Part shown: positions 145 to 56,100 of the stretch, piece after piece
Layout: each line of letters opens with the position of its first letter
Numbering within the stretch: the stretch's first letter is position 1
Source of the DNA: Rhizophagus irregularis
Taxonomy: Eukaryota > Glomeromycota > Glomeromycetes > Glomerales > Glomeraceae
NCBI RefSeq assembly: GCF_026210795.1
Contig: NC_089448.1
Span: 1,984,001 to 2,048,000 of the forward strand
Reading direction: 5' to 3'
DNA: 64,000 nucleotides
Translations under genes and position numbers: made by a program
The notes under the pieces: generated by a model
Told to the model about the DNA's origin: nothing
Databases searched by the model: none
What the model saw: only the letters and a program-made list of their open reading frames with translations

Positions 145-3100
145 ATGAGAGAACGTAATACCAACGGAAGTGCAAACTTCCGCGGAGGACGCGATAGACA
201 AAATGAAGCCGATAGGAATAATAACATGCCACCAGAGCTCAGTATTCCTGAAAGAAAGAGATTGCAACAAAGAACCACCATTGAAAATTTCAAGTCTTCT
301 AAATTAACATATGGAGGTAGTGACCATTTAGTTTTTATTATTAGTGGAGAACGGATTACAACAGTTTGGAAAAATAAATTGAAAAAAAGTCCTTGGCATC
401 AAAATGATGTTAGAATTTTTATTAGTTCAGCATTAGTAACAGCTGATTCTCAAATAGCCAGTGAACTAGTGTCAAAATTGAGTGATTCTGGAAATGGCCT
501 AAAGAAATTAAAAGAAATTATAAAATTTCCTATGTCGTGTAATGCGGGACTTAAAGAAGGAGTATTATCTTTTCAATATGTTGTATTACCTTTATTGGGT
601 TTGTTGACCAGAACAGCTATTACTAAATGTACTTTGGAGAAGCATGTCGACACTATTTATATGACTATTTATGAAAATCTCGTAAGTACTGTATTATTAA
701 CGAAATTAACTAAATATGATGACCTTTATGATTGATTCATTCCTTTTATTTATTTTTTTTTTAAAAAAAACAGGACTTATTTCTTAATAAGAATGTAATG
801 AAAATGTTGGAAAAGTTGGTTCAACGTAATTCTATTGAGGACAACTGTATTAATGTAGATGCATTATTATTACATGAACGATATTCATTCATCCCATCTT
901 CGTAAGTAGACGTACAGTACAACGTGTTAATATACAAAAACCTGACGCAATAATACACTAATTAATTTTCTTCAATATTTTAATAGTTTGGGAATATTCT
1001 TCTTAATAATTGTACGTTTTGTTGCAGAATTATTACGTCGTATTAAAGAAGCATCTGCTAATGAGACAATGCAAAAAATTGTTCTCAATTTACGTGAATT
1101 AACGACTAAATATCATCAAACAATTGAACAACATTGGTCATCTTTGTCTTCAACAGATCCATTAAATAATTCGGAAATCAGAAAATATTTTTTTAAGACA
1201 TTAGGAAATGAAATTGATGAAATTGATGCAGTGATTGAAGAGCTTAATAATGAACGTAATATTTCGGAAACTTATGGCGCAACTAATGAATCTTCAAATG
1301 ATTATGAAAAAAGACATAATAATGATTTTGATGATATTTCAAAAATATCAATTATTCCTACAGAAGAAGAAATATTATGTGATCAACATCCTTATTTACC
1401 TTCACTTTTTGACGAACGTCACTCTTTACCAAATGGAGCGGCTAAATTACTTGATAGACAATTTCGACTTTTAAGAGAAGATATGTTAAATCCAATTCGT
1501 GGTGTAATATCAAATTTTTTGTCTTTATTATCAAGAAATTATTATTTTTCTTTAAATAATAATGGTAGATTATCTAATGAGTTAATGGGTGTACTAGATA
1601 AAGGAAAATTTACGTACAATAATAGCAAGAATGATATAAATGATAATGGTGATTTACAAGTATATGCAAATATAGAATTTATTAATATTGGTTGTGATAA
1701 AAGAGGTTTGTTTTGTACTCTAAAATTTACTCCAAAACATAATTCAACAAGCTTAAGACAAAGAAGAATATATTGGCAAAATAGTAGAAAATTATTATCT
1801 GGTAACCTAGTTGCTCTTTTATTACCAAATCCAAATTTCAAACAATCACCATCGGATATTAACGGCAATATACCTATGAATGATTCAGAATTATATTCAA
1901 TTTATTTCGGTGTAATTATGTCAAGAGATGAAATTACAGATGATCATATTAGAATAAATATCAATTTTGATGATCCATCAATTTATCCTATCGCATTAAA
2001 TAAGGTTTCAAAATTTCGTAATTCAATCATGGTAAATGATTCAAATAATTCAACCAAAAAAAAAACTTATTTAGTGGAATCAACTAACATCTATTTTGAA
2101 GCTTATTATCATGTCCTTAAAACACTTAAAACTACTTATTCACTACCTTTAAAACGGTACTTAGCTCCAGAACTTGACCATCATCAAGCAAACGTTTGTA
2201 TTGATGTTAAAGTTAAACCCCCTAAATATACTGAAGCACCAGGATTTCTATTTGATCTATCAGTTTTATGTAATGATAAGCAACAGTGTTTAACATTAAA
2301 CGTTGCTAATACACATACTTACGATGACGCAGCAAAAAAAATTAATGAAAACAGTAGATTAGATGAATCTCAAGGTAACAAAAAGATTTAATTTTCTAAG
2401 AAAATTTTTATATCACGATATAAATTTTATTAATTTATTAATTTTCAATTGCAGCTAAAGCAGTGATATCTGCTTTAACGCGTGAAATTGCATTAATTGA
2501 AGGTAATGAATTTTCTTTGAAAGATTTTTTTTTTAAAACAAAAAAAGGAATTAAATTTAATGAAGAAAATTTTTTTTTCCATAATTGTTAGGACCACCTG
2601 GTACCGGTAAAACTGTAGTTGGTATTGAAATAATGAAAGTGTTATTGGCCGAAAATAATCGAGCAAATATTGGTCCTATTCTCACCATTTGTTTTACTAA
2701 TCATGCTCTTGACCAGTTCTTGGAGGTAATTTATAATTTGAATCATTAAGATTCATTGTTTTTATCTGATCTAATATACTTTTTTTCATTATTAGCATTT
2801 ACTTGATCAAGATATAACAAAAAATATAGTGAGATTGGGTACTCGAACAAAATCTGAAAGAATTAAAGATTTTATGCTAGGTAAAGTTAAACCTAAAAAT
2901 AGTGAAATCCCTATTTTAGTGGAAGCAATGAAAGATATTGAAAAAGAAGTTGATGAAATAAAATCTTCTTTTAAATGTCGCGTAACATGGAGCGACGTAT
3001 CCGATTATCTAAAAGACGGATACAGAGAATTTTATAATAAATTTAGTAATATAACTCATATTGATTTACCTGGTTGGGTCTTGGGAGATTATAACGCTGA

Positions 3101-6100
3101 AGAAACTGATGAAGATTCTGAAATTGATAAAGATTTTCAAGATAGTAATGATGAAGAAACTGATGATGAAGATTTTTATGATGATAGTGATGATGAGATT
3201 GAGAAATATATGGGCAAGTTTCAAATAGTTCAAAGAAAGCAGACATCTATATTTGAAAGATGGTTAAAGGGAGAAGATATGAAAAGGATCGATGAGACTA
3301 TTAGAAATTGGTCAAATCATGAAGAAATAGATTCAGATGATGATGAATTTTTCGATGAATATGATGAAATACAATACGCTAAAAATTACGAAAAACCGAA
3401 TACAGACCGTCCTATAGATGTGTTATTAAAGGATTATTCAATTTGGCGAATGTCAAGAGAAGAGAGACAAAAACTTCACAATTATTGGCGTGCAAAACTT
3501 GATGAAGTAAGATTATTGAATTTACAAACTGTGCATGAAGAATGTCGTCAAGAATTGAATAATATTTATGATGAAGCGCGTCGTCATATATTATTAAATA
3601 GTGATGTTATTGGTATGACAACAAGTGGTGCTGCTAAATTTCAAAATTTGATTAAATATATTGATCCTAAAATTATTATTTGTGAAGAAGCTGGTGAAGT
3701 TTTAGAAGCTCATATTCTTAGTGCATTAACTCCTTCTACTCAACATTTAATATTAATAGGAGATCACAATCAACTACGACCTCATGTTGCAACTTATTCT
3801 CTTAGTATGGAATCAGACGTAGGAGAGAATTATCAATTAGACAAATCATTATTTGAAAGACTTGTTGATGGTAATAATACAGTTAGAATTGATAAAACTA
3901 GGCTTCTAACTCAGAGACGTATGAGAGGAGACATTTCTGATTTAATCAGATACACAATTTATGATGATCTAGAAGATGGCGAAAACACTACTAATTATCC
4001 AAATATACGTGGAGTTCAGCATAATGTATATTTTATTGATCATAGATATCGAGAGGATAATTCAGCAATGCAGTCTCATGTGAATATGTTTGAAGTTGAA
4101 ATGGTGGTAGAAATGGTTAAATATTTCGTGAAATATGGATATACTAAACCTGAAGATATAGCTGTACTTACCCCTTATTTAGGACAAATGAGTAAAATTA
4201 GGGAAGCTTTATCTGAATCATTTGCTGTTGATATTGATGAAAGAGACGCACAAGATATGGACGATATGGAGGAAGAGAAAATTAATACTCCAAAATCATT
4301 AAATCAACGAGTTACACTAAGAACTGTTGATAATTTTCAAGGTGAAGAAGCAAATATAGTTATAATTTCATTAGTTCGTAATTACTCTGGCAAAAAATAT
4401 AGTTCTATCGGATTTCTTAAAAGCAAAAATAGAAGTAACGTATTGTTGTCACGTGCTCGTGAAGGAATGTATCTTATTGGTAATGCCGACTTAATGGCAT
4501 CAAAGTCTGAATATATGTGGGCTCCTGTTGTTAATATTTTACGTGAGCGTAATCAAGTTGGTCCCGGTATGCCAATCGTATGTAAACATCATCTTGATTG
4601 CAAGAACATTATTACAACCCCCGAACAATTTGATGAAGTTTGTTCTCCAACTGGAGGATGCCGTAGTACTTGTGATATGCCACTTTCTTGCGGACATACA
4701 TGTACCGAGGAATGTCATTTCAATAATCTTGACCATAATGGAGTTAAATGTCGTAAGCCTTGTGAAAAATTGCATTCAGAATGTGGACATCAATGTCGAA
4801 AACTTTGCTATAAAGATTGTGATATATGTAGTGTTCCCGTTGGGAATATTACGTTGCCTTGTGGACATACATTTCAAAACGCTGAATGTTGGCAAAATAA
4901 AATCAAAGAAGATATCAGATGTAAAACCGTTATTGATATTGTATTATCTGATTGTGGTCATCCATTACAAAATATTGAATGTTGGAGAGTTCAAAATGAA
5001 GAGAAATTTATATGTCACTTTCTAATTGATATTACATTACCTGATTGTGGACATCCATATCAAGATGTTGAATGTTGGAAAGTTCAAAATAATGAGAAAT
5101 TTACATGTCATTTTCCTATTGATATTACGCTCCCTTGCGGACATATATCTAATATTGAATGTTGGAAAAGAAAGTTTAAAGATTCGTTAAAATGTTCTAC
5201 TTCTACTGATATTACATTACCCGATTGTGGACATGTATTACATCCTGAATGTTGGAGAGTTCAAAATAGAGAAAAGTTTACATGTGATCATATTGTTGAC
5301 ATTACACTACCTTGCGGACATATATTACCAGACGTCGAGTGTCGGCAAAATAAGACCAAAGGAAAAATCAAATGTAATATTATAATTGATATTACATTAC
5401 CTGGTTGTGGACATCCGTTACAAAATGTTGAATGTTGGAGAGTTCAAAATAAAGAGAAATTTAAATGTCTATCTCAAATAAACATTCTATTAGATTGTGG
5501 TCATCCATATCGAAATGTTGAATGTTGGAGAGTTCAAAGTAAAGAGATATTTACATGTCATTGCAAAATTGATATTAAATTACCTTGTGGGCATATAGTA
5601 CGCGATGAATGTTGGAGAAAACACGTTAAAGAGACAATCAAATGCAAAACTCCTATTAGCGATAAAATGCCTTGTGGGCATATGTTAAAAGATATTGAAT
5701 GCTGGAAAGTTCAAAATGGAGAATTTACATGCCATAATCTGGTTGATATTACACTACCTTGTGAACACACATTAAAAAATGCCGAATGTTGGCAAAACAA
5801 AACAAAAGGAACAATCAAATGTGAAACTACTATTGATACTGTATTACCTGATTGCGGTCATACGTTAAAAAATGTTGAATGTTGGAAAGTTCAAAGTAAA
5901 ATGAAATTCACATGTAACTTTCCGGTTAAAAAAAAATTACCTTGCGGTCATACATTTAATATTAAATGTTGCATTAAAGATCAAACTGAAAATATACCTA
6001 AATGTAATCATCTTGTTGATATTAAATTACCTTGTGGTCATACATCAAGATCTGTTGATTGTTGGAAAATTAAAGACAACGTAGAAATCAAATGTATTAC

Positions 6101-8234
6101 ACCTATTAATTTTACATTACCTTGTGGACATATATTAGAGGATATTAGATGTTGGCAAAGTAAAATTGAAAATATACCTAAGTGTAATATCCTTGGTAAT
6201 ATTGAATTTCCTTGTGGACATACGGTAAAAAATGTCGAATGTTGGAAAAAAGCAACAATCAAGTGTACGGAGCAAATCGAAATAAGTGTGCCTCGTTGTG
6301 AACACATTAATGTCATCCAGGTATATTTATTTTACATAGTATTGAATATTTTATGTTTTAAATAATTTTTATCATTAATTGGGATTATTTTATATTTAGT
6401 GTTCTGAGTTAGTTAACGGTATTCAATGTAGAAACAATTGTGGAATACAATTGGAATGTGGCCATGAATGTTTAAATAAATGTATTAAATGTCAAGAAAA
6501 TTCTATACCACGAAATTCCAAAATCAAAAACAAATTAATAGAGCGAATAAACCATGGAGAATGCAAGTCTAAATGTAATAGGTTATTATATTGTGGACAC
6601 ATGTGTGATGAGAAATGTTCCCATAAAGGTGAATGTCGGCCATGTAATAGTAAATGCGCAGTATCATGTGACCACAAAACGTGCAGTAAAGATTGTTTAG
6701 AACCTTGTGCTGTATGTGCAAAGAAATGTTCGTGGGAATGTAGGCATCGAGGAAAATGTGAATTAAGCTGTGGAATTCCTTGTGATAGATTACCTTGTAA
6801 TGAAAGATGTGATAAAAAAGCGAGATGTGGTCACAATTGTGCTGGAATTTGTGGTGAAATTTGTCCTACTCATTGTGCTGACGCTAACTGTGTTCCTAAA
6901 AGAATCAGATATCAAGGTAAATTAATGTAAATTATTTGCTATTTTGTAAGATTTAATAATGATCTTTATTAATATTAATAATAATAATATCTTTAAAACA
7001 GTATCAGATATATTCAATAAAACTACGTTTAGTAAGGTAGATTGGAATAAAGAAAGGATGGTTGCACTTCCTTGTGGGCATATATATACAATGAAATCTA
7101 TGGATAAGCTTATGGAAATGAAAGAATATTATGGAGGTTCAATTGAAAGAGGATGGACATTAGTTAAGTCGTTACCGACTTCAACAATCATAAAAAGGTG
7201 CCCAGCATGTCAAACATCAATTAGGAATATTAGAAGATATGGAAGAATAATTAAAAATTACACATTGGAAATACAGAACAAGAAGTTCATAACAAAATAT
7301 GATGGTGAATTAATAAAAATTGACAAACGTATTATTGCATCCTTTAACGAAATGAAAAGAGGAAGAAAAAAATTAAAAAAAGACTTATGTGACATTTCTA
7401 AATTTAAAAACAGAATAGAATTTAAGGTTATAAATAAAGGATTGCCAGAAATTACACCTTATCAATATTTTGAAGGTATTGCACAATATCATGGATTTGA
7501 TGAAAATAGTCAACAAGTTTGGCTTAGTCACGTTAACAAATTATTAAGAAGCTATTATAACTTAATTCCCATTATTCGCGCCGCCAAAAACACACCTCAT
7601 AAAAAAGCTTTCGAAGCAAATTTGTAAGTATAGAATAAGTTATTTTTAAAGATGATTTTTTTATATTTTATTTTAATTTTACTTAATAATTTATTTATTT
7701 ATTTATTTATTTATTGTTTTTTTTAGAAATACAACGGGAGGATCCAGAGATTTAACTTACAAACAACAATTAGATCATAAGGTTTATTCGATTTATGTAG
7801 ATGGTGTTTTGAAAGTTATCGACATACAAAAAATCTTACATGATGAAATTTTATTCATAATTCAAGAATTATCTTTAGTAACTAAAGATGTTACAACTAT
7901 TAAAGAACTTTGGAAAAAATTTGATGAAATATTAAAACAATCTATTCAAAACCATTTACGTTTAATTAAAGATGTGGCAAAATCTACTGATTATGGTAGT
8001 TATTCACTTTTAGTTAATGTAGAAATATTAGAATGTGATTTTATCATGCTTAGAAATCCATATAGTAATAATTCCATTGATAAAGCAGAAATTATAAAAA
8101 AGTGTGAAGATATTAAAAGAAATATCAAGGATATATCTGAAAATTCCAGTTACGTAAACGCCGAAGAAAAATTTAAGAAGAGTATTCTCGATAGATTAGA
8201 TAAATTGTGGGATAACTGTGATAGAGTAATTTGA
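145..8234 (+). CDS. ZNFX1-like SF1 helicase with NFX1-type zinc fingers, copy 1
   Basis: Nine exons: 145-681, 774-901, 987-2374, 2455-2502, 2592-2725, 2796-6320, 6400-6916, 7002-7623, 7727-8234. All introns are GT-AG and phase closes throughout, giving about 2468 residues. The N-terminal 680 residues match the ZNFX1 pre-helicase region by pattern. Walker A GPPGTGKT is near residue 701, then an acidic Asp/Glu insert, motif II as CEEAGEVLEAH near 1041, motif III GDHNQLRP, motif V DNFQGEEAN near 1260 and motif VI NVLLSRAREG. Sixteen CGH/CW repeats follow (about 1430-1915), then classic NFX1 fingers (exon 7) and a helical C-terminus. The family unwinds RNA; animal ZNFX1 works in RNA surveillance and small-RNA inheritance, and yeast Hrr1 in heterochromatic RNAi. 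A role here is inferred. Motif II has Glu where UPF1 has Asp, as I recall for ZNFX1. Its direct paralogue lies at 50141-58156. Confidence 0.9.
4850..6310 (+). repeat. Coding tandem array of CGH/CW zinc-ligand repeats (copy 1)
   Basis: Within exon 6 of copy 1 the protein repeats a unit of about 28-32 residues sixteen times. The core is hydrophobic-Leu-Pro, an optional residue, Cys-Gly-His, 7-9 residues, Cys-Trp, 9-12 residues, Cys. Each unit thus offers Cys, His, Cys and Cys in a spacing that could bind one zinc ion. Units are diverged, and some have lost a ligand or the Trp (CEH in one, CC for CW in another). It lies directly between the helicase core and the NFX1 fingers. Confidence 0.85.
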
Positions 8235-8578: not shown

Positions 8579-9096
8579 TAGGGATGGCAACGGTCACGGT
8601 CATTAACCGATTATGACCGGTCATGACCGTGACCGATATCGGTCGGTCAAGACTTCTGACCGACCGTTTGACTGACCGTTTGACCGACCGTTTGACCGAC
8701 CAAATTTTTTTATGAAAAATTTAATAAAAAACGTCGCGAAAACGTTTTTTATTAATAATTTAATTAAAAAAAAATGTTTTTCGCAACCGTTTTTAATTAT
8801 TTTAACAAAAAACGTTGCGAAAACGTTTTTATTAATAATATAATTAAAATAAAACGTTTTCGCAACGTTTTTTTAATTATTTTAATAGAACGTTGCGAAA
8901 ACGTTTTTTTATTAATAATTTAATAAAAAATAAACGTTTTCGCACGTTTTTTCAATTGCCTTAATAAAAACACTGCGAAAATATAAAAAAAAATGATCGG
9001 TCAAACTGTCGGTCAAACGGTCGGTCGGTCGGTCAAAGGTTCTTGACCGGTTATGACCGACCGATGACCGACCATGACCGACCGTTGCCATCCCTA
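8579..9096. mobile_element. hAT-like fold-back MITE with 8-bp target duplication
   Basis: A 518-bp element starts TAGGGATGGCAACGGTC and ends with the exact reverse complement. It is flanked by perfect 8-bp direct repeats GTCCAATT (8571-8578 and 9097-9104). The first and last 120 bp or so are inverted copies of each other and consist largely of GACCG/CGGTC repeats, which resemble subterminal transposase-binding clusters. The middle holds several inverted copies of an AAACGTTGCGAAAACG-type motif. There is no coding frame, so it is non-autonomous. An 8-bp duplication and a TAGGG terminus fit the hAT superfamily. Confidence 0.85.
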
Positions 9097-13898: not shown

Positions 13899-14105
13899 TA
13901 ACTCTAACCTTGGTAACTACTTACCTTCCCTAGTTCTAACAAAAACTAATCCTAACCCTAATCTAATCCTAACCCTAACTACCATTCTAATTCTAATTTC
14001 AACTTAACCCTAACCCTAATCCCTAACCCTAATCCTAACCTAAACCTAACCCTAACCTAACCCTAACCCTAACCCTAACCTTAATCTTAACTCTAACTCT
14101 AAACT
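13899..14105 (-). repeat. Interstitial telomere-like (TTAGGG)n tract
   Basis: Plus-strand CCTAA/CCCTAA repeats, i.e. TTAGGG on the minus strand, run for about 200 bp. The core at about 13995-14085 has many exact CCCTAA units, and degenerate flanks drift to CTAATTCTAA. It lies inside the Helitron, between the helicase stop and the 3' hairpin. TTAGGG is the usual fungal telomere unit. Confidence 0.85.
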
Positions 14106-14417: not shown

Positions 14418-16073
14418 TTAAAGAATTTCTCTATATATAATATTTTTTGTGTAAACTCCTGGTCTATCATCATTACAAATATTATTTACCAAGATTATAA
14501 TATTATCTTTTGATTGAACTCTTGATAAAGCTACATATAATTGGCCATGTGTAAATACAGGATTGCGTAAATCTAATCCTACATATGGAATGGTCTGTCC
14601 CTGAGCTTTATTAATTGTCATGGCAAAAGCTAAGCGAATTGGAAATTGGCGGCGAATTAATTGGTCAGCATCTGATGGTGCTATTCTGATTCAAGGAATA
14701 AAAACTCTTTTTCCAAGATGAGAACCAGTTATAATTTCAGCATCTATTACATGACGTTGAAATCCTCTAACTATAAGTCGAGTACCATTGCAAAGTCCTT
14801 CAATTGGACTAATATTTCTTAATAATATTATAGGTACTCCAATTTTAAGAACTAATCTATGAAGAGGAGTTCCATTTGGTGTTAAAGTATTTAAAAATTC
14901 TACAGAATAAAGATTTTCATAAACTGAATTTTCATCTTCAACTGAATCTGCAGATAGGAATTCTTGAGCATTTCCAGGAAAAATATTAATAATTTGTGAA
15001 TTAATATTATCAACATCTTCATTTCGTGTTGTAAGTATTGCTCTATCTTTAATATAATTAATGTAATTAATAGTATCCTGATAATTACTATCAAGATTAG
15101 GAAAAATTGTTGATATTAATAATTCAAGTATTCCATTATCAAGGATCATAGTATTATCTAATTTTATAATATCTTCACTAATATCATCATATTTTTGTTC
15201 TTCTCCCTGTCCAATTTTTAATAAATAATTAACAAATTCCTTTTGCTCCTCATTATCTTGTTGGTGAATTCTCATATTAATTGTTAAATGCATTATTTGA
15301 ACTATTCTCCATAATGATGAGGATTTTATACATGCATTTACAATATGAGAACATGTTCCTCGAATTACTACAGGTAAGATTTGTCTAAAATCTCCACCCA
15401 TTACAAAAATAATGCCTCCAAATGGTTTGTCAACTTCTGTTATATCCCTAAATGTTCTATCAACAGCTTCAAAAGTGAATTTATGTGCCATTGGTGCTTC
15501 ATCCCAAATGATCAATTTTGTCATTTTAATCAATTTGGCTAATTCAGATTGTTTACTTATATTTAATGTTGAATTTTCAAACAATTTGATAGGAATCTTG
15601 AATCTTGAATGTGCAGTTCTTCCACCATTCAGTAATAATGCAGCAATTCCTGATGAAGCAACAGCAATAGCTATATTAGATTCTGATCTTACTTTAGCTA
15701 AAATTATATTAAATAAAAAGGTTTTTCCATAACCTCCAGGTCCATCAACAAAAAATAATGTTTGATCTATTTCCTCATTATATGCTTTAATAATGGTATT
15801 ATAAATATTTTTTTGATCATCATTCAATTGATCTACATTTACTAAAAAGTTCTGTAATTCTATTGAATCATAATTTAATTCTTCCATTATCATATTAGAT
15901 TGTTGAAAATCTTCTATTAAAGAGTAATCAGGTCTTGTAATAGAAAAATCATACAATGTTTTACCATAAGGAATAAGATATTTTTCAATATCTATTAATG
16001 TTTTTGTAATTACAATTTTAAAATCATTATCTAGTATTTCTGAATTTTTCTTGTTGATGCATATAATCTTCAT
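14418..16073 (-). pseudogene. Helitron Pif1-like helicase part, disrupted
   Basis: The minus-strand frame 16073-14691 encodes a Pif1-like SF1 helicase: Walker A GPGGYGKT near residue 109, motif II IIWDEAPMAHK near 188, motif III GGDFRQILPVV near 229. The frame stops at TGA (14691). The same frame stays open beyond and holds the last motifs, TINKAQGQT (V) and YVALSRVQS (VI), to the stop at 14418. The stop therefore looks like a nonsense change, plausibly CGA to TGA. In intact Helitrons this helicase is fused to the upstream Rep part. Here a frameshift near 16075 and a TGA near 16155 break that fusion. Helicase activity in rolling-circle transposition is family knowledge. Confidence 0.85.
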
Positions 16074-16155
16074 TTAAATTATCAAAATGATTCTTTAATA
16101 AAGTAAAGGGATTTACTTCATGAAGATCACAAAATAACAGAATGGAGGCAAATAA

Positions 16156-19137
16156 TCATCTTAATTGGAATGGCATTTTAAATGTGGCAGCTTCTTCAAG
16201 ACATTTATCAAATTCATTATTCTCTTCATCTAATAATCCAAGGTATCGTACTGCTTCTTCAAAAGTATTATAAACAGTTCCATTTATAGTACGAATAGCT
16301 TCATAAGATGTTGCTCCATGAATTTGAGTTAATAAAAGCCTTAAATAATATCGTTCCTTATCTTGTATACTGCACATATATATTCTTGAGATTACTTTTT
16401 CACCACCTCTTTTTCTTGGTTGCCAATTTCCATTTTTCCATACAAAATGTTTTGGAAAATCAATATAGCGTAAATTTGTAATTGTCAAATCTTCTTGATT
16501 ATTTGCACAGGTTTCAAAATAACGGGTTAATTTTGTGTGTGAAGATTGTTCTAATATTGTTGTTATATCTTGATTTTCCTGAAAAATAACAGATTGTTGT
16601 TCAGATAAATGAACTGGAAGCCTTTCAACTTTATGTGATCTTTGTTGTAATTTAAAATTGAATATTCGCCAACATGCTTCAGCAGCAGAAACATATCTTG
16701 CATTAAGATATTTTGTAATTTCATTATATGAATGTTCAATAGATACTATTACACGATCATGACCTTTATAAACATATTTATAGAGATACTTTACTGATCG
16801 CATACTTGAACATATTTCCACATTAATATGACAATTATATTTTTGACATAGATATGGGTTATAGGGAACAATCCATCTATTATCAATAGTTGCTCTTGTT
16901 TTTATAATTTTACGTTCATCATTTCTTCGTCTATATACTATATATCCAAATTTATTTGTTGCTGTTGTTGAAACAAAATCTCTTGGATAATATTTACTGC
17001 ATTTTCCATTTTCCATGCAAGGTGAATTAGGATTTAACATTCCACAAGGACCATGAATCATGTTTCTGCTAACAGTTTCATATAATAATGGTTGTTGTTG
17101 TTTATCTGGAATTTCTGCACATACCAATTCATTAAAATCATCTGATATTCTTGGTTTATCTTCTGGTGCCAATATCATTAATATATGTGCATGTGGTAAA
17201 CCTCGTTTCTGAAATTCAATTACATGAACATGAGCAATAACTTTTCCTAATACACCTTTTATAAAAAGATCATGAGTGATTGATTTTAATTTCAACTTAA
17301 AAACTCTTGTAACTAAATCTGGCCTGTCACTTGCTTGTTGATTTGGTAAAAGTTCATTTGTAATTTCAGGCCAATTTGGGTTGCAAGTAACAGTTACAAA
17401 TAAATCAGGTTTGCCAAATTCTCTAACAATTGACATGAAATCTTGATACAATTGTTGCATGTATCTTTCAGAATTGGTAAATGATGATGATAAAATTATT
17501 TTTTTACCAATACTACTGTGAATGGCATCTTCATCTGAAGCAAAATCTCGTAAACCTGAATATATTTCTTGTCTGAGATCTTGTTGATGGTCTCTATACC
17601 ATCTTAAATTATTTGATTCCCATTTGGCATATTGATCTACCAAGTATTGTTGAAATAATCTTCCTGAAAGGTGTAAAATGCTTTTAGATCTATTTGAATC
17701 TCTAACTTGAATTCGATATACTACAAATTCTCTAATTGTAACTCGTTTTCGTTTAATTTCTGCTTGTTCATTTCCAATTTCTTGTTCATCATCAGATTTG
17801 GTTTCTTCCTCTTCTTCTTGCTCATCATTAAATTCATTGGATTCAATTTCTATTGCTCTGCCTTTACCTTTATTTCTTCTAGATATTTCAGGTTCAATTA
17901 AAAGATCTTCCATATCTTGAGTTGCTCCTGTATGCCTAATCATTGGTGTTTCATGTTCAAATTCAGATCCAGATGGCATTATTACATTACGTTTTAAAAT
18001 ACTATCATGCCATCCATATTCTCCATATGGAAATAATAGAGGATATTGTAAAGGATCATAAGCACCATGTAGTTCATTAATATGTTTTAACTTATCTTCA
18101 TAACATCTGATAACAATATCTCTTGGATCTGGTACTTGATTAAAATCATTAAAATCTTGAAGTATAACCGCAACTTCACTGGCTGTTGGTTTATTATATT
18201 GTCTCATATCCTTACCATGTGTTTTATGAATAATTAATCTCATATCATCAATATTATTTATCCTTTTAGCTTGTTCTCCTGCAGTTATAAAATTATGAAC
18301 AAATGGATTTTCAATGTCATATAACTCAGTTTGTAATGCACTCAACATGTCAGAATTCAAATATGGAAAAATTTCTTGTCTTCTTTTAAGTTGATTATCC
18401 ATATTTGAATTATAAAAATAAATTTGAGCAAATGCTGGTGGATAATTTTCTTTAGGCATTAATCCACCAATTCTATGATATAATGCACCTTGAATTCGGA
18501 AAGTATAAACACCTTCCTTGGCATTTGCTAGGTCTTCATCAATATTTGCTCCTAATGATGTAAATGCAAATATACTATTGTATGCTCTAATACTATCTAT
18601 ATAAGGTTTATCTGTATTTGGATCATTTGATGTAAGCAAATTATATAACATTGGTGGAGCTTCATGTAAAGGTGATAGAATAACCTGTCCATCTAAACAA
18701 CAAAATCCTTTTGTTTCATATTTCCATTTAAGTGCATAACATTTATCACAAATTTTGTTCATTCTTTCAAATCTATGTCTACCATTTATTATTTCATCAC
18801 CTTCCATCATATCTTCAATATAATTGTCTATATTATAACACCCAATTTTTAGAAATTGAGTTCTTAATAGTTCTTGTTGTGCAGCATACCTAATTTGATG
18901 TGCAAGTCTATCTTGTTCAAGAATATTTGTTCTTTGCTCATCTGTCATGGCAGTTCTTGATTTTTGTTTTCTTATTTTAGCATTTGTAGTTGTTGTGGAT
19001 TGAGAGGACTGTTGCCTTTGATTAAACCTTCTTATTGCTTGTTGTTTATTTTTTAACCTTTTTTTTCTGGCTTCATTTGATTCATTTTCAGGTTCAGGAA
19101 ATGCAAGTTCAATTTCTTGTAATGATTTATGTGTCAT
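16156..19137 (-). CDS. Helitron Rep-type replication initiator domain (N-terminal part)
   Basis: The 993-residue frame holds the Helitron helicase-like N-terminal domain (YLVDQYAKWE region near residue 495). The HUH motif GLPHAHIL is near 645, and the tyrosine motif KYLYKYVYKG with two Tyr and Lys is near 782. These are the nicking and joining residues of Rep/Helitron proteins. The N-terminus is basic and Gln/Arg-rich, with a CDKC pair that may be part of a zinc module; an acidic stretch lies near residues 430-455. The frame ends at TGA just after FQLR, but the same frame continues with expected Helitron sequence before a frameshift, so the stop is a lesion. The start at 19137 is the first Met of the long frame. 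Confidence 0.85.
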   Translation of the reverse strand: MTHKSLQEIELAFPEPENESNEARKKRLKNKQQAIRRFNQRQQSSQSTTTTNAKIRKQKSRTAMTDEQRTNILEQDRLAHQIRYAAQQELLRTQFLKIGCYNIDNYIEDMMEGDEIINGRHRFERMNKICDKCYALKWKYETKGFCCLDGQVILSPLHEAPPMLYNLLTSNDPNTDKPYIDSIRAYNSIFAFTSLGANIDEDLANAKEGVYTFRIQGALYHRIGGLMPKENYPPAFAQIYFYNSNMDNQLKRRQEIFPYLNSDMLSALQTELYDIENPFVHNFITAGEQAKRINNIDDMRLIIHKTHGKDMRQYNKPTASEVAVILQDFNDFNQVPDPRDIVIRCYEDKLKHINELHGAYDPLQYPLLFPYGEYGWHDSILKRNVIMPSGSEFEHETPMIRHTGATQDMEDLLIEPEISRRNKGKGRAIEIESNEFNDEQEEEEETKSDDEQEIGNEQAEIKRKRVTIREFVVYRIQVRDSNRSKSILHLSGRLFQQYLVDQYAKWESNNLRWYRDHQQDLRQEIYSGLRDFASDEDAIHSSIGKKIILSSSFTNSERYMQQLYQDFMSIVREFGKPDLFVTVTCNPNWPEITNELLPNQQASDRPDLVTRVFKLKLKSITHDLFIKGVLGKVIAHVHVIEFQKRGLPHAHILMILAPEDKPRISDDFNELVCAEIPDKQQQPLLYETVSRNMIHGPCGMLNPNSPCMENGKCSKYYPRDFVSTTATNKFGYIVYRRRNDERKIIKTRATIDNRWIVPYNPYLCQKYNCHINVEICSSMRSVKYLYKYVYKGHDRVIVSIEHSYNEITKYLNARYVSAAEACWRIFNFKLQQRSHKVERLPVHLSEQQSVIFQENQDITTILEQSSHTKLTRYFETCANNQEDLTITNLRYIDFPKHFVWKNGNWQPRKRGGEKVISRIYMCSIQDKERYYLRLLLTQIHGATSYEAIRTINGTVYNTFEEAVRYLGLLDEENNEFDKCLEEAATFKMPFQLR

Positions 19138-20198
19138 CTTAAAAGTTTTTTGATTTAATATTTAGAGAAAAAATTATGCAAAATAAAAGAATTTATATTA
19201 ACTTTTTAAATAAAATATATGACATCATATTTATTATTAAAAATCAAATAGCATTGTTAAAAAATTAAATATAGTAAATTTATTTATAGAATATTATTAA
19301 TTTATTTATTAAAAATTTAAATATTGTATTTTTAATTAATAGTATTGTAAAAAATCAAATGTATTTATTATAGAATATTATTAGAAATTTAAATATTATA
19401 TTTTTTTTTATACAGTATTGTTATAAATTATAATAAAATACAATAAAGTTTCAATCACCTTTATGACATCATATTTATTATTAAAAATCAAATAGCATTG
19501 TTAAGAATTAAATATAGTAAATTTATCTATAGAATATTATTAATTTATTTATTAAAAATTTAAATATTGTATTTTTATTTAATAGTATTATGAATATTAT
19601 TAGAAATTTAAATATTATATTTTTTTTTATACAGTATTGTTATAATAAAAAAATATATATAATACAGTAGAAATTAAATATAGTAGTATTAAATTTAAAT
19701 ATTATATAGCATTGTTAAAAAATCAAATGTATTTATTATAGTGATTTGATAGATAAAAAAAAATGTATTATTGTAAAGTATTATTATTAGAATTTATAAC
19801 ATTGTTAAAAGTTAAATATTGTTATTAAAAATATGATATGATTATTATATATAGTATGTTTCATAATTTCATTATAATTATTAAAGTCTATTTATAGCTA
19901 ATAAAAGTTAGTGTGTGATTTGCTTATGAATTTCCTTTTTTAAATATTTGTGTAAGCCACAATTTTATGTTTCGCGAGAAACAAAATTCCTTTTGCGTAA
20001 TGTCACGTGATAGACTTTGCGTAATTAAATAAATCTTTAATTCCGGCCGGAATTAATTGATCTGCAAAGAAATTTCCTTTTTGGGAATTTCGTGTAACTC
20101 AAAAGTTCATTTTTCGTGAGGAACAAAATTTCTTTTTTTGGAAACTTGTGTGACATCACGTGATATATTTGGTTCCATCGGTTGGCTGGTTTGGTTCG
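19138..20198. repeat. Helitron 5' region, duplicated A+T-rich block
   Basis: No gene. A block beginning ATGACATCATATTTATTATT occurs at about 19219 and again at about 19462. Each copy is followed by similar A+T-rich sequence (AAATAGCATTGTTAA, ATAGTAAATTTAT, TAGAATATTATTAATTT), so this is a direct duplication about 240 bp apart. The stretch from 19900 has TTCGTGTAA / CGCGAGAAACAAAATTCC-type short repeats. Confidence 0.5.
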
Positions 20199-21415: not shown

Positions 21416-23079
21416 TTAATTTCTTTCATCTATAATAAAAAAATAATTTAATTAAATCAAATAGACCAAAAAATCACATGCAAAAGAAATTACCTTTAGG
21501 ATTAATATCAAGTTTAGTAAAATCCATTTTTAAGGAATCTATAAATATAAGTTGTCAGAATTATAAAACTAATTTAAATTATTATCGAAAACTATATGTG
21601 ATTACCTGAATATTCTACTTTAAGTAAAACATTATTATCAGAATTTTTTGGTTCTGGAAGTTTTTTAAAATCTAAAAGTCTACTTGTATAAACTGCTTGA
21701 GGATGTGTCATATATGAGAGTATACTTGTATCAGATGATAATGGCAATTGAACCGGAAAAGATGACTTTTTATTAATGTCATCTGCCCCTTTAACTTGCC
21801 CATAAATTACAGAAGCTACTTTATTGTCCCTAATATCACGATATAATTTCACTATTAACTCACGTAATTCATTTGCATCAGGTCGTTTTAAAGGGTTTGC
21901 ATTCCAACATTGATTAATAATGTCAAAAATTAATTGAGGAATTTTATAATTAGACGTTGGCCTCAATCCCTTACAAATTTTCATTGCTAAGAATTCATCA
22001 TGAGCTATATCATGATAAGGAGGGAAACCTGTACAAATTTCATATGCAATAATTCCAAATCCATAAATATCGCTTTTTTGAGTATATTCTTTTCCTCTTA
22101 AAACTTCTGGAGCTACATAAGGTAATACTCCATATATTTTTTTATTACTATTTTGAGAGGATTTGACATTAGCAGGCTGACATAATCCCAAATCAGTAAT
22201 AGAAACATATTGAACATATTGATCAGAATAGCTTAATATATTCCCACAATGAAAATCATGATGAATTAATCCTTTATTATGAATATCTTTAAGACCAAAT
22301 GCAACACCTTGTAAATTATACAACTTATTCTCCCAATTCAGTGAAATGAAGTTGTTGTTTAAATATTGTCTTAAATTACTATCTTTTAAATCCATCACCA
22401 TCATAAAATCATTTGTTTTTGGATTTTTGGTAATACCAAAACAACGAACTATCCAACTAGTATTATATACTAAAATATTTGACTCAACCTTAAAAGAAAA
22501 TTATAGTTACTTTAACATTTATAAAGGCTAATTAAGATTTATAAGAAAATATCTTACTTCTTTTAAGAATTCTGCGGTAATGCCTTGCGAGTTATGTAAA
22601 CATTTTAAAGCAACTTTTGTTTCACCTACTCTCATAAATTGATTATTTTCATAACCACAATAACTAATACGACCATCTTTCCAAACTGCTTTAAAAGTAG
22701 TTCCAAATCCCCCTTTTGCCAAATATTCAACATTCTCGAACTTATCATATTCAATCCACTCTATGGGACTATACTTATTACTAGCTTTTAATTGTGCTTT
22801 TTGAATAAATTCATCAACGTCATTATTTCCACTTGTCCAATTTTTGAAATTTTGTTGAAAACAACAATAATTGCAAAATCTCCAAATTTTAATATAGTTA
22901 CATTCTTCGCATAAACCATTGCCTTTATAACGTTCTTTTAATTTTTCGTCTGTTATTAGTTTATCAATTAACGATTCTTGTTCTTCAGTCAAATCATAAA
23001 AAACAAAGTCTTTTATTTGTTCAATTACATCATCACTTAGTTTAATTTCATCCATTTTAATAAATAATTTTTTAAACAA
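21416..23079 (-). CDS. Protein kinase, TKL-like, with N-terminal Cys-pair module
   Basis: Four minus-strand exons: 23079-22558, 22488-21606, 21538-21494, 21429-21416. GT-AG junctions and phase close, giving 487 residues from the first Met; Met9 is an alternative start. Residues 57-72 hold two Cys pairs (CEEC, CNYC), then FQQNFKNWTSGN, a linker typical of the large Glomeromycotina kinase family. The kinase domain has a Gly-loop KGGFG (122-126), VALK lysine (159), HHDFHCGN catalytic loop (Asp about 252), DLG in place of DFG (about 273) and APE (about 299). All catalytic residues are present, although the HRD Arg is replaced by His. It probably phosphorylates Ser/Thr or Tyr; substrates are unknown. 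The two small last exons were placed from splice sites and the family-like C-terminal text, and are less certain. Confidence 0.85.
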
Positions 23080-46377: not shown

Positions 46378-47505
46378 TTAAAGTTTAGAATTCAATTTGT
46401 TACAATAGGAGTGAGGAAGGAATGTATGTTGTGAAAGATATTCAATCCTGGGTATGATGTCTTTGTTGATTACATAAATAATATGATCATGGGTAAGTAG
46501 CGTAATTACCATACTATTAATTTTAGCTATAGTAGTAGAATTGCTATCGTTGGCACTAAGATATACCCCTAAAATTCTTGTACCTTGACCATATGGGAGG
46601 AGTTTTACATCTACCGCTTCTGACTCAAATTGAAGATTAAGCATCCGCTCATCTAATTTTCGGTTATGAAGAATAACCGATTTTCTTTTATTAATTTTTA
46701 TGCTAGCAAATTGGTAAAAGTCGTCTGCTATATTTAAATTATGTTGTAGATTTTTTAAATTGTCCGCAAGCCAAGTGGTATCATCCAAATAGCCGAGAAC
46801 TTTCGCTGAGAAGGATTCTCGTATTACGTCTTCTGGGTCGTCATCATCGACTCTTTTCGGAAGCGTTGTGGTATAGTTGACTCCATCGAAATCAAGTGTG
46901 TTAATTTTTTCAAACATGGGATCATAGTATATAACCCATAATAAAGGGCAGATAGATTCTCCTTGGTCGATACCGTTGATGACATCGTACGCGTCTCCAA
47001 TCCAATCTTCGAATAAAACTTGATTTTTCCGATTAGTGAACAAGTTGATGATAAAAGTAATAATTTTTTCAGGTGTACAGATCCGTTTCAGTGCGCATTG
47101 AAGAAGAGAAATATTGAGTCTATCATAAGCTTTAGAGAGATCTTGTATCATAATGTATAATTTTTTCTTTTGAGAATTGGCAGCTATAATTGCAGTTTGA
47201 AGTGTGAGTATAATTTCCATACAAGATGAGCCTTGAGTACCTGCTCTATTGTTATGTTGGAGAATTTCACACGAACTTAAGAAAAGGTTAAGTCGGGAGT
47301 TAATGACTTTTACCAATAATTTTCGAAATGTATCAAGTAAAACTATCGGACGAGTGTGTTGGATATCGTTGTCCCACCAAGTTGGTTTTGGAATAGGATA
47401 TAAGAGTGCATCTTGCCATGATGATGGTATGAAACCTTTGTCTATGATGTCGTTGTAAAGAATTATAAGTTCGTTCAAAAATTCATCTGGAAGTTGTTTG
47501 ATCAT
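46378..47505 (-). CDS. LINE reverse transcriptase
   Basis: A frame of 375 residues holds the RT palm. Motif A region is QDLSKAYDRLN, motif B IDQGESICPLLW, and catalytic motif C YLDDT (more often FADD or YADD). NNKAPGPSGITYEMIK (RT motif 1 region) lies immediately upstream in the same frame, so the true domain starts above the first Met. A frameshift near 47570 separates it from the linker. The enzyme would copy LINE RNA at nicked target DNA. The two Asp of motif C and the Asp of motif A are intact. Confidence 0.9.
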   Translation of the reverse strand: MIKQLPDEFLNELIILYNDIIDKGFIPSSWQDALLYPIPKPTWWDNDIQHTRPIVLLDTFRKLLVKVINSRLNLFLSSCEILQHNNRAGTQGSSCMEIILTLQTAIIAANSQKKKLYIMIQDLSKAYDRLNISLLQCALKRICTPEKIITFIINLFTNRKNQVLFEDWIGDAYDVINGIDQGESICPLLWVIYYDPMFEKINTLDFDGVNYTTTLPKRVDDDDPEDVIRESFSAKVLGYLDDTTWLADNLKNLQHNLNIADDFYQFASIKINKRKSVILHNRKLDERMLNLQFESEAVDVKLLPYGQGTRILGVYLSANDSNSTTIAKINSMVITLLTHDHIIYVINKDIIPRIEYLSQHTFLPHSYCNKLNSKL

Positions 47506-47779
47506 TTCATATGTGATGCCTGAAGGACCAGGAGCCTTGTTGTTCGGTAGGACTTTGATGGTACTTCTAACGTTGTAGGGTTGGAAAGTTTGTTAATAGC
47601 ATCATCTGGAATGTTCATTTTGGGTTGATAATATTTGGCCCATTCTTCTCTAATCGGTAAGTTTGGGTCGTATTGTCTAGGATTGTTAGTCGTATCTGAA
47701 GAACCGATATGTTTGAAATGTGAATTAACTCTATTAGTAATTTCAGTTTCATCAGTAGTGAATTTGATTTCATCGTTTT

Positions 47780-50088: not shown

Positions 50089-50140
50089 AAAAATATCGTA
50101 CAAATATTAAATACTTAAATCTTATTTTCCAAAAGTTACT
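50089..50140 (+). promoter_or_regulatory. Conserved 5' flank of ZNFX1-like copy 2
   Basis: Matches the 5' flank of copy 1 (89-144): ATCGTACAAATATTAAATAC, AAATCTTATT and AAAAGTTACT before ATG. Conservation across the two copies supports the chosen start codons. Confidence 0.4.
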
Positions 50141-53100
50141 ATGTTTGGTGGTGGTAACAACTATAACGCAAGAGCAAACTTCAACCGTGGTGGACGCGGC
50201 GGACGCGGTGGTGAAAGAGGAAGCTTTCGTGAAGTACGTGGTGGTGGAAGAGGAAGCTTTCGTGAAGTACGTGGTGGTGGAAGAGGAAGCTTCCGTGAAG
50301 TACGTGGTGGTGGAAGAGGAAGCTTTCGGGAAGTACGTGGTGGTGGAAGAGGTCATGATACGCCAAGACTTAGTATTCCTGAAAGAAAGAAATTGCAACA
50401 AAAAACTGCCATTGAAAATTTTAGTCCCCCTAATTTAGCACATGAAGGTAGTGACAAATTAGTGTTTATTGTTAATGGAGAACCGATTACTACCGTTTGG
50501 AAAAAAAAATTGTTGAAAACCCCTTGGCATCAAAATGATGTTAGAATTTTCATTTCTTCAGCATTAGTAGCAACTGATTCTCAAAAAGCCGGAGAATTAG
50601 TAACGGAATTAGGTAATGATAATGGTCTAGAGAGATTAAGAGAAATAATGAATTTCCCTATGTCATGTGATGCGGGACTTGATGATAGAAAATTATCCTT
50701 TCAATATGTTATATTACCTTTTTTGGGGTTACTGACAAAAACTGATATTACTAAGTGCATTTTGAAATATGTTGACGCAATATTTATGCTTATTTATAAA
50801 AATCTCGTAAGTATTATCGACGAAACTAACTAAATGTGATGGATTATTCTTTTCTTTACGATTAATTCCTTTTTTTTTTCTTAAAAAAAACAGGACTCGT
50901 TCTTTCATAAGAAAGTGATGAAAATGTTGGAAACGCTTGTTTCACGTAATTATATCGTAGATAATAAGGTTAATGTGGATAGATTATTTATCGAGGAACC
51001 ATATTCATTCATTCCACCTTCGTAAGTAATAATTTTGACATAAAACGTGCAGATATGCGAATCAAGTGTAATAATATATTAATTAATTTTTATTTAATAC
51101 GTTTTATAGTCTAGGAATATTTTTTTTGATAATTGTACGACTTCTTACAGAGTTATTACGTCGTATTAAAGAGGCATCCACTAATGAGACAATGCATAAT
51201 ATTGTTCACTATTTACAAGACTTAACGGCTAAATATAAACGATCACTTGAAAGGCCGCTCATTTCAAGAGACCCATTAATTGATAATTTGGAGATCAGGA
51301 AATATTTTTTCGCGATACTAGATAATGAAATGAATATTATGATTGAAATGTTTAATACTGAACATATTTCGGAAACTTCCAATGTACCTGATGAATCTTC
51401 TAATGATGATGAAAAAAGACATGATAATGATTTTGAAAATATTTCAAACATATCAATTATTCCTACAGAAGAAGAAATATTATGTGATCAACCTCCTAAT
51501 TTACCTTCACTTTTTGACGAACGTCACACTTTGCCAAATGGAGCGGCTAAATTACTTGATAGACAATTTCGCCTTTTAAGAGAAGACATGTTAAATCCAA
51601 TTCGTGGTGGAATATCAAATTTTTTGACTTTATTATCCAAAAATTATTATTTCACTTTAAATAATAATGGTAGATTATCTAATGAGTTGGAGAATGTACT
51701 AAATAGAGGAGGTAAATATACTTATAATAAAGGTGCAAATGATAATGGCGATTTACAAGTATATGCAAATATAGAATTTGTTAATGTTGCTTGTGATAGA
51801 TGGAATGGTTTGTTTTGTACTCTAAAATTTATTCCAACTCATAATTCAACAAATATAAGGAAAATAAGAGAATATTGGCGAAACAGTAAAAGATTAAAAC
51901 CTGGTAATCTCGTTGCTCTTTTATTACCAAATCCGAATTCCGAACGTGATTTTAATTTATATTCAATTTATTTCGGTGTAATCATGTCAAGAGATGAAAT
52001 GACAGAAGATGAACGTATTAGAATACATATCAATTTTAATGACCTATCAATTTATCCTATTGCATTAAATGAAATTTCAAAACTTCGTAATTCAACCACA
52101 AAAAATAATTCAAAAAATTCGAACGAAGTAAAAAGTTACATGGTAGAATCAACTAATATTTATTATGAAGCTTATCGTCATGTTCTTACAACACTTCAAA
52201 CTACCAAGCCTTCTTCTCTCCCCTTTAAACAATATTTAGCTCCTGAACTTGATTTCTGTTCAGAGAGCATTCATGTTAATGTTAACCCTCCAAAGTATAC
52301 TAGAGCACCAGGATTTCAATTTGATTTATCAGCTTTATGCGATAACAAACAGAATTTAACATTAAATGTCGCTAATACGCATACTTATGATGACGTAGCA
52401 AAGAAAATTAATGCATATAGTATATTGGATGAATCTCAAGGTAACAAAAAGATTTAATTTTTTTAAAAGATCCACATATCATGACATAAATTTTATTAAT
52501 TTATTCATTTTTTCAATTGCAGCTAAAGCAGTGATTTCTGCTTTAACGCGCGAAATTGCACTAATTGAAGGTAATGAACGTTCTTTGAAAGACCAAAAAA
52601 AAAGAATTAAATTTAACAAAATAATTTTTACTTTTTTCATAATTTTTAGGACCACCTGGTACCGGTAAAACTGTAGTTGGTATTGAAATAATGAAAGTAT
52701 TATTGGCCGAAAATAATCGAGCAAATATTGGTCCTATTCTCACCATTTGTTTTACTAATCATGCTCTTGATCAGTTCTTGGAGGTAATTAATACTTATTC
52801 ATCATTAAAGATTTTATTCGTTTTATTTCATCTAATTTAATATTCATTTTTTTCTTTTTATGATTTAGCATTTACTTGATAAAAATATAACAAAAAATAT
52901 AGTGAGATTGGGTACTCGAACAAAATCTGATAAAGTTAAAAATTTTATGCTAGGTAAAGTTAAACCTAAAAATAGTAATATCCCAATATTATTTCAAAAA
53001 TTAGAAAATATTGAAGAAGAAGTTCAGGATATAAAAACATATTATAAAAGTCGCATAATATGGAATGACGTATCTGAATATCTAAAGGATACTCAGAGAG

Positions 53101-56100
53101 ATTTTTATAATAAATTTAGTAATGTAACTCATATTGATTTACCTAGTTGGGTCTTGGGAGCAAATATTATTGAAGAAATTGATGAAGATTCTGAAACTGA
53201 AGAGAGTAGTGATGAAGAATTTGATGATGAAGAAATTGATGACGAAGAAATTGATGACGAAGAAACTGATGATGAAGAAACTGATGATAAAGGTTTTCAA
53301 GATAGTAATAAAGAAAAAAATGAAGAATCTCAGAATAAATTTATTAAGGTTCAAGGAAGGAAGATGCACGAATTTGAAAAATGGTTAATTGGGGAAGATA
53401 TTAAAAAGATTGAAGAGAGAAAAAATCATTGGTTAAATAATGAAGAAACGGATTCAGATGATGATGAATTTATCAATGAAGAATTACAATTTGTAAAAAA
53501 TTATGAAAAACCAAACACTGATCGTTCTTTGAATGAATTATTAGAGGATTGTTCAATTTGGAAAATGTCAAAAAAAGAAAGACAAAAACTTCATGATTAT
53601 TGGCGTGCAAAACTTGATGAAGAAAGATTATTGAATTTACAAACTAAGCATGAAGGATGTCGTCAAGAGTTGAATGATATTTATGATGAGGAACGCCGTC
53701 AAATATTATTAAATAGTGATGTTATTGGTATGACAACAAGTGGTGCTGCTAAATTACAAAATTTAATTAAATATATTGATCCTAAAATCATTATTTGTGA
53801 AGAAGCTGGTGAAGTTTTAGAAGCTCATATTCTTAGTGCGTTAACTCCTTCTACTCAACATTTAATATTAATAGGGGATCACAATCAGCTTCGACCTAGT
53901 GTTTCAACATATTCTCTTAGTATGGAATCACAAATAGGAGAAATTTATCAATTGAATAAATCATTATTTGAAAGATTTGTTGATGGTAATAATGCAATTA
54001 CAATTGAAAGAACTCGACTTTTAACTCAGAGACGTATGAGAAATGAAATTTCTGAATTAATTAGTAGTACAATTTATGATGATCTAGAAGATGGCGAAAA
54101 CACTGCTAAATATCCAAATATATGTGGAGCTCAGCATAATGTATATTTTATCGATCATAATCACCCAGAAGATAGTTTTGGTGATTCCGGGACACAATCT
54201 CATGTAAATATGCATGAAGTTAAAATGGTTGTAGAAATGGTTAAATATTTTGTTAAAAATGGATATACTAAACATGAAGATATAGCAGTGCTTACTCCTT
54301 ATTCAGGACAATTGATCAAAATCAAGGATGCTTTATCTAAATCATTTTTCGTTGAAATTGATGAGAGAGATGCAGAGAATATTGCTGATATGGAGGGAGA
54401 AGAAAATAATACTTCAAAACCATTAAATCAACGAGTTATTTTAAGAACTGTTGATAACTTTCAGGGTGAAGAGGCAAAAATAATTATCATTTCATTAGTT
54501 CGTAATTGTTCTGGTAATAAATATAGCTCTATCGGATTTCTTAAAAGCAAAAATAGAAGTAACGTATTATTATCACGTGCTAAGGAAGGAATGTATCTTA
54601 TTGGTAATTCTAAGTTGATGGCATCAAAATCTCTGGACATGTGGGCTAAGGTAGTTGATATCTTACACAAGCGTGATCCATCACAAATTGGTCCTGGTAT
54701 GCCAATTGTATGTAAACTACATCCTGATTGCAAAGAGGTTGTCACTAAACCCGAACAATTTGCCGAATTTTGTTCTCCAAATGGTGGATGCCGTAGTATT
54801 TGTAATAAGCTACTTTCTTGCAAACATACATGTGTTGATAAATGTCATTTCAACGATCGCGATCATAAGAAATATAAATGTCGTAAGCCTTGTGAAAGAT
54901 TTAAATGTGATCATAAATGTCCAAAATATTGCTATGAAGATTGTGAAAAATGTAATGCTCCCATTGAAAATGTTAGATTACCTTGTAGACATTCATTACC
55001 AAAGGTTGAATGTTGGAGAGTTCAAGATAACGTTATGCCTAAATGCTGTTTTCCAATGGATATTATATTACCTGGCTGTGGGCACACATTAAAAGATGTT
55101 GAATGTTGGAGAGTTCAAAATGATGATCTACCTGAATGTCGGTATCCAATTGATATTAAATTACCTGACTGTGGACACACATTACAAGATGTTGAATGTT
55201 GGAGAGCTCAAAATAATGATCTACCTGAATGTCGGTATCCAATTGATATTAAATTACCTGACTGTGGACACACATTACAAGATGTTGAATGTTGGAGAGT
55301 TCAAAATGATGATCTACCTGAATGTCGGTATCCAATTGATATTAAATTACCTGACTGTGGACACACATTACAAGATGTTGAATGTTGGAGAGCTCGAAAC
55401 AATGATATACCTGCATGTAGATCTCCAGTTGATATCCAATTACTTTGTGGACATACATTATATAGTGCTGAATGTTGGAGAAATCAAAATAGAGAAAAAA
55501 TTGAATGTGATGAACCTATTGATCTTATATTACCTGGTTGTGGACATACATTACCAAAAGCTAAATGTTGTTTGGATAAAGATAAAGAAAGCATCAAGTG
55601 TAAAACCTCTATTAATGTTACATTATCTTGCGGACATACATTACAAGATGTTGAATGTTGGAAAAATAAACATAGACAATTACCTAAGTGTAGTGCTTCT
55701 ACTAATATTACATTGCCTTGTGGACATATATTACAAAATGTCGAATGTCATAAAAATGAAATCAAAGAAGAAATCAAATGTACCGCTCCTGATGATATTG
55801 AATTACCTTGTGGACATATATTAGAAAATGCTGAATGCTGGCAAAATAAAAATAAAGAAAAAATTAAATGTAATACTACTAAGGATATTACATTACCTGT
55901 TTGCGGACATCTATTACAAAATGTTGAATGTTATAGAGTTCAAAATGAAGAGTCATTTACATGCAAGTTTCCGGTTGATATTGAATCACCTGGTTGTGAT
56001 CATACATTAAAGATTGAATGCTGCAAAAAAGATCAAAGTGAAAATATACCTAAATGTAATCATCTTGTTAAGACTAAATTACCTTGTGGACATATGTCAG

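Follow-up and report, generated by a model that had tools for sequence, protein, structure and literature searches.

The stretch of the Rhizophagus irregularis genome analyzed here (assembly GCF_026210795.1, contig NC_089448.1, positions 1,984,001 to 2,048,000 of the forward strand; 64,000 nucleotides, hereafter the window, with coordinates counted from its first letter) has a GC content of mostly 0.21-0.35. It contains two genes, A and B, that each encode a ZNFX1-like helicase with a long tandem array of short units rich in putative zinc ligands. A third gene with such an array, gene C (L001), lies on the same contig (C20), its helicase part beginning about 27 kb upstream of that of gene A. 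The features of genes A and B are the following:

145-681, plus strand: exon 1 of gene A; the start ATG is predicted, and the frame is open when joined with exons 2-7
774-901, plus strand: exon 2 of gene A; AG/GT borders
987-2374, plus strand: exon 3 of gene A; holds the Pfam ZNFX1 domain (PF25396)
2455-2502, plus strand: exon 4 of gene A; placed by its borders and the joined frame
2592-2725, plus strand: exon 5 of gene A; Walker A motif GPPGTGKT
2796-6320, plus strand: exon 6 of gene A; remainder of the superfamily 1 (SF1) helicase (AAA_11/AAA_12), first NFX1-like fingers and array
4833-6266, plus strand: array A; 16 whole C-x-H...C[W]...C units
6267-6429, plus strand: 17th, terminal (CEH) unit of gene A; split by the intron 6321-6399
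6400-6916, plus strand: exon 7 of gene A; cysteine-rich NFX1-like fingers, no Pfam match
7002-7623 (approximate borders), plus strand: exon 8 of gene A; RING-like CGH...CPxC segment
7729-8232 (approximate borders), plus strand: last exon of gene A; shorter than the last exon of paralogues with one unit
50111-58100 (approximate, exons not joined), plus strand: gene B, a paralogue of the same architecture
54957-56306, plus strand: array B; 15 whole units, then a terminal CEH unit

When exons 1-7 of gene A are joined they form a single frame of 2092 codons without stops and with an intact Walker A motif, the last two exons being read individually, outside this join. Exon 6 sits in an open stretch of 1189 amino acids (aa) (2796-6365, plus strand). 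The RING-like segment of exon 8 gave no Pfam match above the cut-off.

Relationship to ZNFX1 helicases

The initial annotation had called gene A a ZNFX1-like helicase, and this assignment is borne out. The Pfam ZNFX1 domain scores 40.8 bits against a cut-off of 27, both parts of the SF1 core (AAA_11 and AAA_12) exceed their Pfam cut-offs, and the protein matches ZNFX1 of PDB entry 9q9z with an E-value of 6.7e-83. The Walker A motif in exon 5 is accompanied by a Walker B motif (IICEEAGE) in exon 6. A genome search with the ZNFX1 domain yielded 16 matches in total, including matches beside 14 other copies or relatives. The likeness to 9q9z covers the ZNFX1 domain, the SF1 core, the finger region behind the helicase and the start of the CGH module: the stretch of NFX1-like fingers directly after the helicase aligns to residues 1329-1445 (E-value 2.9e-20), and the alignment extends past these first fingers to the first CGH. 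Human ZNFX1 differs in that it has six NFX1-type fingers followed by a C-terminal RZ finger (PMC11959080). In gene A there are 16-17 CGH units, and an RZ finger was not found.

The Pfam profile of the NF-X1-type zinc finger (PF01422) matched none of the exons of genes A and B and none of 15 two-unit array segments; its one match in the genome (14 candidates scored) is located on contig C27. No named domain of Pfam or NCBIfam was found within the array. Two subthreshold rows, a metallo-beta-lactamase (E-value 1.1e-5, 25 bits against a cut-off of 560) and DUF5609 (19 bits against a cut-off of 25), were taken as chance.

The repeat unit and its arrays

Array A consists of 16 contiguous units of 27-31 residues each, which tile 4833-6266 without leftover residues. 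The consensus of the unit is approximately xxxIDIxLP(D)-C-G-H-xLxNVE-C-W-xxQNKExIK-C. Its pattern is C-[GE]-H followed by a second and a third cysteine, with a tryptophan after the second cysteine of the unit's four-ligand pattern (C, H, C, C) in 35 of the 46 whole units of genes A, B, and C. When a strict spacing pattern was applied, it picked out 15 of the 16 units of array A; 2000 shuffles of these residues gave 0.3 matches on average and never more than 3. The sixteen tandem units of about 30 residues claimed by the initial annotation are thus confirmed by the tiling and the shuffle test, and a 17th spans the next intron. The annotation was also right in placing the array after the helicase core and before further NFX1-like fingers; it did not include gene B.

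The three long-array genes hold 16 (A), 15 (B), and 15 (C) units, the terminal CEH unit being additional in each case. The first part of this terminal unit is also present in other copies. An assembly artefact was considered and is thought unlikely because the three genes carry differing arrays in open frames.

Unit numbers among the paralogues

The genome searched is the assembly of the window (146.7 Mb in 32 contigs). The helicase part gave at least 28 matches with an E-value of 1e-20 or better, among them at least 15 nearly full-length copies without stops, one distant relative (L015, 32% identity), and 12 pieces. Stop-containing fragments (12 of 28 rows) were excluded from the unit counts; of these, the sequence of the fragment on C18 was retrieved. 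Eleven of the 15 nearly full-length copies have one unit, one (at C26:2501k) has four, and the remaining three are genes A, B, and C. These numbers are pattern counts corrected by hand (17, 17, 16, 5, and 2 became 16, 15, 15, 4, and 1) by subtracting the first NFX1 finger of each gene and, in gene B, the terminal CEH unit read into the intron. The pattern used for the ligand survey caught three of the four units of C26:2501k, the figure of four coming from a separate count. By eye, L015, in which the RZ finger is present, has two CGH units, while L016, an intron-rich copy at C32, has one clear and one doubtful CGH unit and no array. L016 may be of the type of the silencing helicases Hrr1, SAD-3, and RnhA.

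Searches with segments of arrays A and B disclosed no other long array in this genome, within the limits of such searches. No relatives of array B were seen in the viral and prokaryotic contigs scanned, a set that contains no eukaryotes and is uninformative on other fungi.

Since most paralogues in the genome carry one unit, the array is a lineage-specific multiplication of one ordinary ZNFX1 zinc module and no unknown domain. The proposal of an undescribed protein architecture was therefore too strong, the array being a multiplication of an existing module, although no published description of the array was found in the literature searched, a search that missed most subscription papers and all bioRxiv preprints. 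The further claim that the array is unusually long stands within this genome, given the 11 of 15 copies with one unit and the two distant relatives with one or two.

Members of the ZNFX1-like family lie at C26:2.45-2.82 Mb, at C16:3.53 and 3.87 Mb, and at C20:1.96-2.04 Mb, those on C26 and C20 being clustered. Fragments occur on C4, C5, C18, C23, C26, and C28, several of them with stops.

Distribution of the RZ finger

The Pfam RZ domain (PF20173) adjoins the 3' side of six one-unit copies and was found beside none of genes A, B, and C (34 candidates scored). Using profiles built in this study for the two halves of the finger, we detected both halves in all eight one-unit copies with an uncut 3' part, among them the six with the independent Pfam match. 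In two of these eight the second half is incomplete; in L009 the two halves are spaced further apart and a stop follows the second. Functionality is therefore not claimed for all eight RZ fingers. Three further one-unit copies, which miss most of the 3' part, were left unscored. In the four-unit gene the first half is altered (29.7 bits), and little if anything of the second remains (11 bits). None of the three long-array genes shows an RZ finger within the range searched (gene A to window position 14000, gene B to 64000, and gene C to about 2.6 kb past the last exon); the best scores are 5.2, 7.8, and 8.3 bits, all in the RING-like exon. Because no RZ finger was found in them, genes A, B, and C probably encode scaffolds rather than RZ-type E3 ubiquitin ligases.

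The genome also has a large family of RZ-finger genes on C4, C18, C20, C21, C27, and C29. Of 26 RZ matches, 16 fall within long open frames, whose lengths are about 750-980 or 2025-2059 aa, and one match on C18 is located less than 10 kb from a ZNFX1-like fragment.

Predicted fold of the unit

An AlphaFold2 model of two units (alignment of 15 rows) has a predicted local distance difference test score (pLDDT) of 88 and shows a hairpin and a helix per unit, with C-x-H at the hairpin turn and the helix beginning at the CW cysteine. A four-unit model was also computed, and the two-unit model is the better of the two predictions. The four-unit model was not used as a source of the fold, as its Foldseek and VIA-align rows look unrelated. 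With the two-unit model, VIA-align gave a Z-score of 2 or more for four of 120 chains. The first row is yeast FAP1 (chain sh of 7zw0; root-mean-square deviation 3.6 over 57 of 60 residues), followed by finger chains of TRAF6 and TRAF4 (Z 3.3 and 2.5) and an intein (Z 2.2).

FAP1 is a clear relative of the genome's own NFX1 homologue at C27 (E-value 2.3e-73). In spacing, the unit is like the CxCG...C...C modules of NFX1 and FAP1. FAP1-type proteins differ in alternating a CxCG module with CGHxCxxxCH fingers, whereas the gene arrays repeat one kind of module. FAP1 is also not known to contain a helicase. A comparison of the unit profile with these two kinds of modules in the NFX1 homologue did not discriminate between them (scores 19.6 and 19.0, probabilities 67 and 70), with five and three modules, respectively, caught by the pattern and others missed; only the CxCG module aligned across the whole unit.

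The initial annotation had proposed one zinc per unit. The invariant C, H, C, C residues and the confident two-unit model agree with this, the zinc itself being putative, and each unit likely binds one zinc through these four residues. The extended rod that the annotation had also proposed is a conjectural shape, the four-unit model being of low confidence and of another topology than the two-unit model. It is improbable that the units instead form disulphides or share metals between neighbours in a continuous beta sheet. The four-unit model is indeed a continuous beta meander, and the residue spacing in such a model would place C-x-H and C...C at opposite ends of a hairpin, but that model reaches a pLDDT of only 67 against 88 for the two-unit model with another topology. 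Moreover, helicases of the ZNFX1 family are intracellular, a setting in which disulphides are unlikely.

The sequence flavor of the unit (LPCGH...C...C) is also that of a RING half-motif such as that of AMFR. The unit might accordingly be half a RING, with the array recruiting ubiquitin-conjugating enzymes in place of the lost RZ ligase, which we regard as the least probable of the alternatives. The best PDB sequence matches of the unit profile are RING domains (AMFR, E-value 0.0018), not NFX1 proteins, and two-unit segments match zf-RING_UBOX in 9 of 15 cases (best E-value 0.0034) and zf-RING_2 in 7 of 15 (best E-value 0.00073). However, the two cross-braced sites of a RING require eight ligands, while each unit has four invariant ones. 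The zf-RING_2 score of one segment is 12 bits against a cut-off of 27.3, and similar CGH...C...C modules in ZNFX1 relatives belong to the NFX1 region.

History and constraint of the arrays

A tree of the helicase part, from which L016 was excluded, groups genes A, B, and C with a support of 92/100. The place of the four-unit gene in this tree is unsettled and the outgroup branch is very long. A first alignment of the arrays in overlapping five-unit windows was dropped, as it aligned identical pieces instead of units. Among the units, best matches between genes are found for A13-B12, A14-B13-C13, A1-C1, A2-C2, B8-C8, and B9-C9; other units, for example A15 and A16, have mixed best matches. Units 3-5 of array B are identical to each other at 87-91 of 93 bases, and Tandem Repeats Finder (TRF) reports a 6.1-copy, 93-base array in this region. 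As some units correspond between genes while units 3-5 of array B are nearly identical, we take the expansion to be older and the local turnover of units to have come after it.

The four putative ligands are intact in all 46 whole units of genes A, B, and C, a result favored by the fact that units were recognised by, and aligned on, the ligand residues. Nevertheless, a degenerate unit would have nowhere to lie, since the tiling has no gaps. At the ligand codons, 19 of 184 are the rarer synonymous codon. Residue-changing differences were found at none of 60 ligand codons in each gene pair, against 27.5 (A-C), 33.2 (A-B), and 30.0 (B-C) expected from the other array codons, while synonymous changes at the ligand codons number 6, 15, and 11, respectively.

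It is possible, though rather unlikely, that the length of the array is a by-product: similar units in a duplicated gene would grow and shrink in number by unequal crossing-over, and selection would act on the folding of each unit but not on how many there are. The near identity of units 3-5 of array B with the TRF array, an array ratio of nonsynonymous to synonymous substitution rates (dN/dS) above that of the helicase, and the several broken family fragments in the genome would fit such a by-product. It is opposed by the presence of 16, 15, and 15 units in three separate genes, some with unit-by-unit correspondence, and by the lack of ligand loss among the 46 units.

Other features of the window

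Immediately 3' of gene A, repetitive DNA (8600-8900) contains an open frame in which NGRS-like and KNVAKTFF-like strings recur. NGRS/DRLTD-like strings similar to those 3' of gene A occur in L020, adjoining a truncated copy. Three further features lie on the minus strand:

14691-19161, minus strand: open frames with a Helitron-like N-terminal domain and a PIF1-like helicase; probably a helitron element
21592-22500, minus strand: protein kinase open frame (PK_Tyr_Ser-Thr)
46378-47592, minus strand: reverse transcriptase open frame (RVT_1); a retrotransposon copy or remnant

These fungi are reported to have greatly expanded gene families, kinases included (PMC8647823).

A proposed multi-zinc arm on a ZNFX1-like helicase

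Taking these results together, we favor with moderate confidence an explanation in which genes A, B, and C jointly represent SF1 RNA helicases of the ZNFX1/Hrr1 lineage that carry a multi-zinc arm for multivalent contacts and are without an RZ ligase. In the common ancestor of the three genes, one CGH...C...C module of the ZNFX1 zinc region, in front of the terminal CEH module, would have been multiplied in tandem, so that about 15-16 copies arose from one. The expansion itself follows from the comparison of copies, and the duplication probably proceeded via unequal crossing-over. Each unit would most likely form a beta-hairpin with C-x-H at its turn and a short helix from the CW cysteine, holding one zinc, as suggested by the ligands and the two-unit model. 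The resulting helicase would carry an arm some 480 residues long, and this arm may provide many weak contacts with RNA, with itself, or with protein partners. The helicase could thereby bridge and concentrate target RNA in silencing or antiviral particles.

This bridging role is suggested because of the known roles of the ZNFX1, Hrr1, and RnhA proteins. Hrr1 is called an orthologue of ZNFX-1; ZNFX-1 retains silenced RNAs within nuage, and Hrr1 acts together with an RNA-dependent RNA polymerase (PMC9276528). RnhA of Mucor has a predicted NF-X1 finger domain and is needed for epimutations (PMC5384783). Animal ZNFX1 is reviewed as an RNA-activated E3 ligase that gathers RNA into particles with the ligase machinery, two studies cited in that review disagreeing on whether RNA itself is ubiquitinated (PMC13270118). 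The properties of the ZNFX1 zinc fingers are described as largely unexplored (PMC11959080), and an HRR1 homologue was detected by spore proteomics in R. irregularis (PMC8647823).

Several results speak against the explanation that we favor. On the structural side, the four-unit AlphaFold2 model (8 rows) is all-beta, with a topology unlike that of the two-unit model. Foldseek returned nothing for either model at an E-value of 0.001, the structural match to FAP1 is weak (Z 3.4), and the closest PDB sequences of the unit profile are the RING domains mentioned above. With regard to constraint, the dN/dS of the array is 0.58 (A-C) and 0.67 (A-B), compared with 0.49 and 0.46 for the helicase part, and that of the finger region (about 60 codons) is 0.28 (A-C) and 1.24 (A-B); in view of these values, this end of the protein may be weakly constrained. 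As for the RZ finger, the seeds of the profiles stem mostly from the copies themselves, and the loss represents a single event within a single clade, accompanied by a decayed RZ finger in the four-unit gene, so it provides no independent correlation with the long array.

Significance

A bolder proposal, which we consider doubtful, is that the trio forms a new class of ZNFX1 proteins in which a lost ligase tail has been replaced by a rapidly renewable arm of 15-17 knuckles. If this were true, RNA would be clustered by multivalent binding instead of ubiquitination, and duplication of units would adjust the length of the arm to counter transposons or viruses. The paralogue series with one, four, and 15-16 copies of the module, with and without the ligase finger, would allow a direct test of the role of this module. 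Expanded RNA-silencing genes were already known from this fungal group (PMC8647823), and the ZNFX1-like family, with at least 15 copies, is an addition to them.

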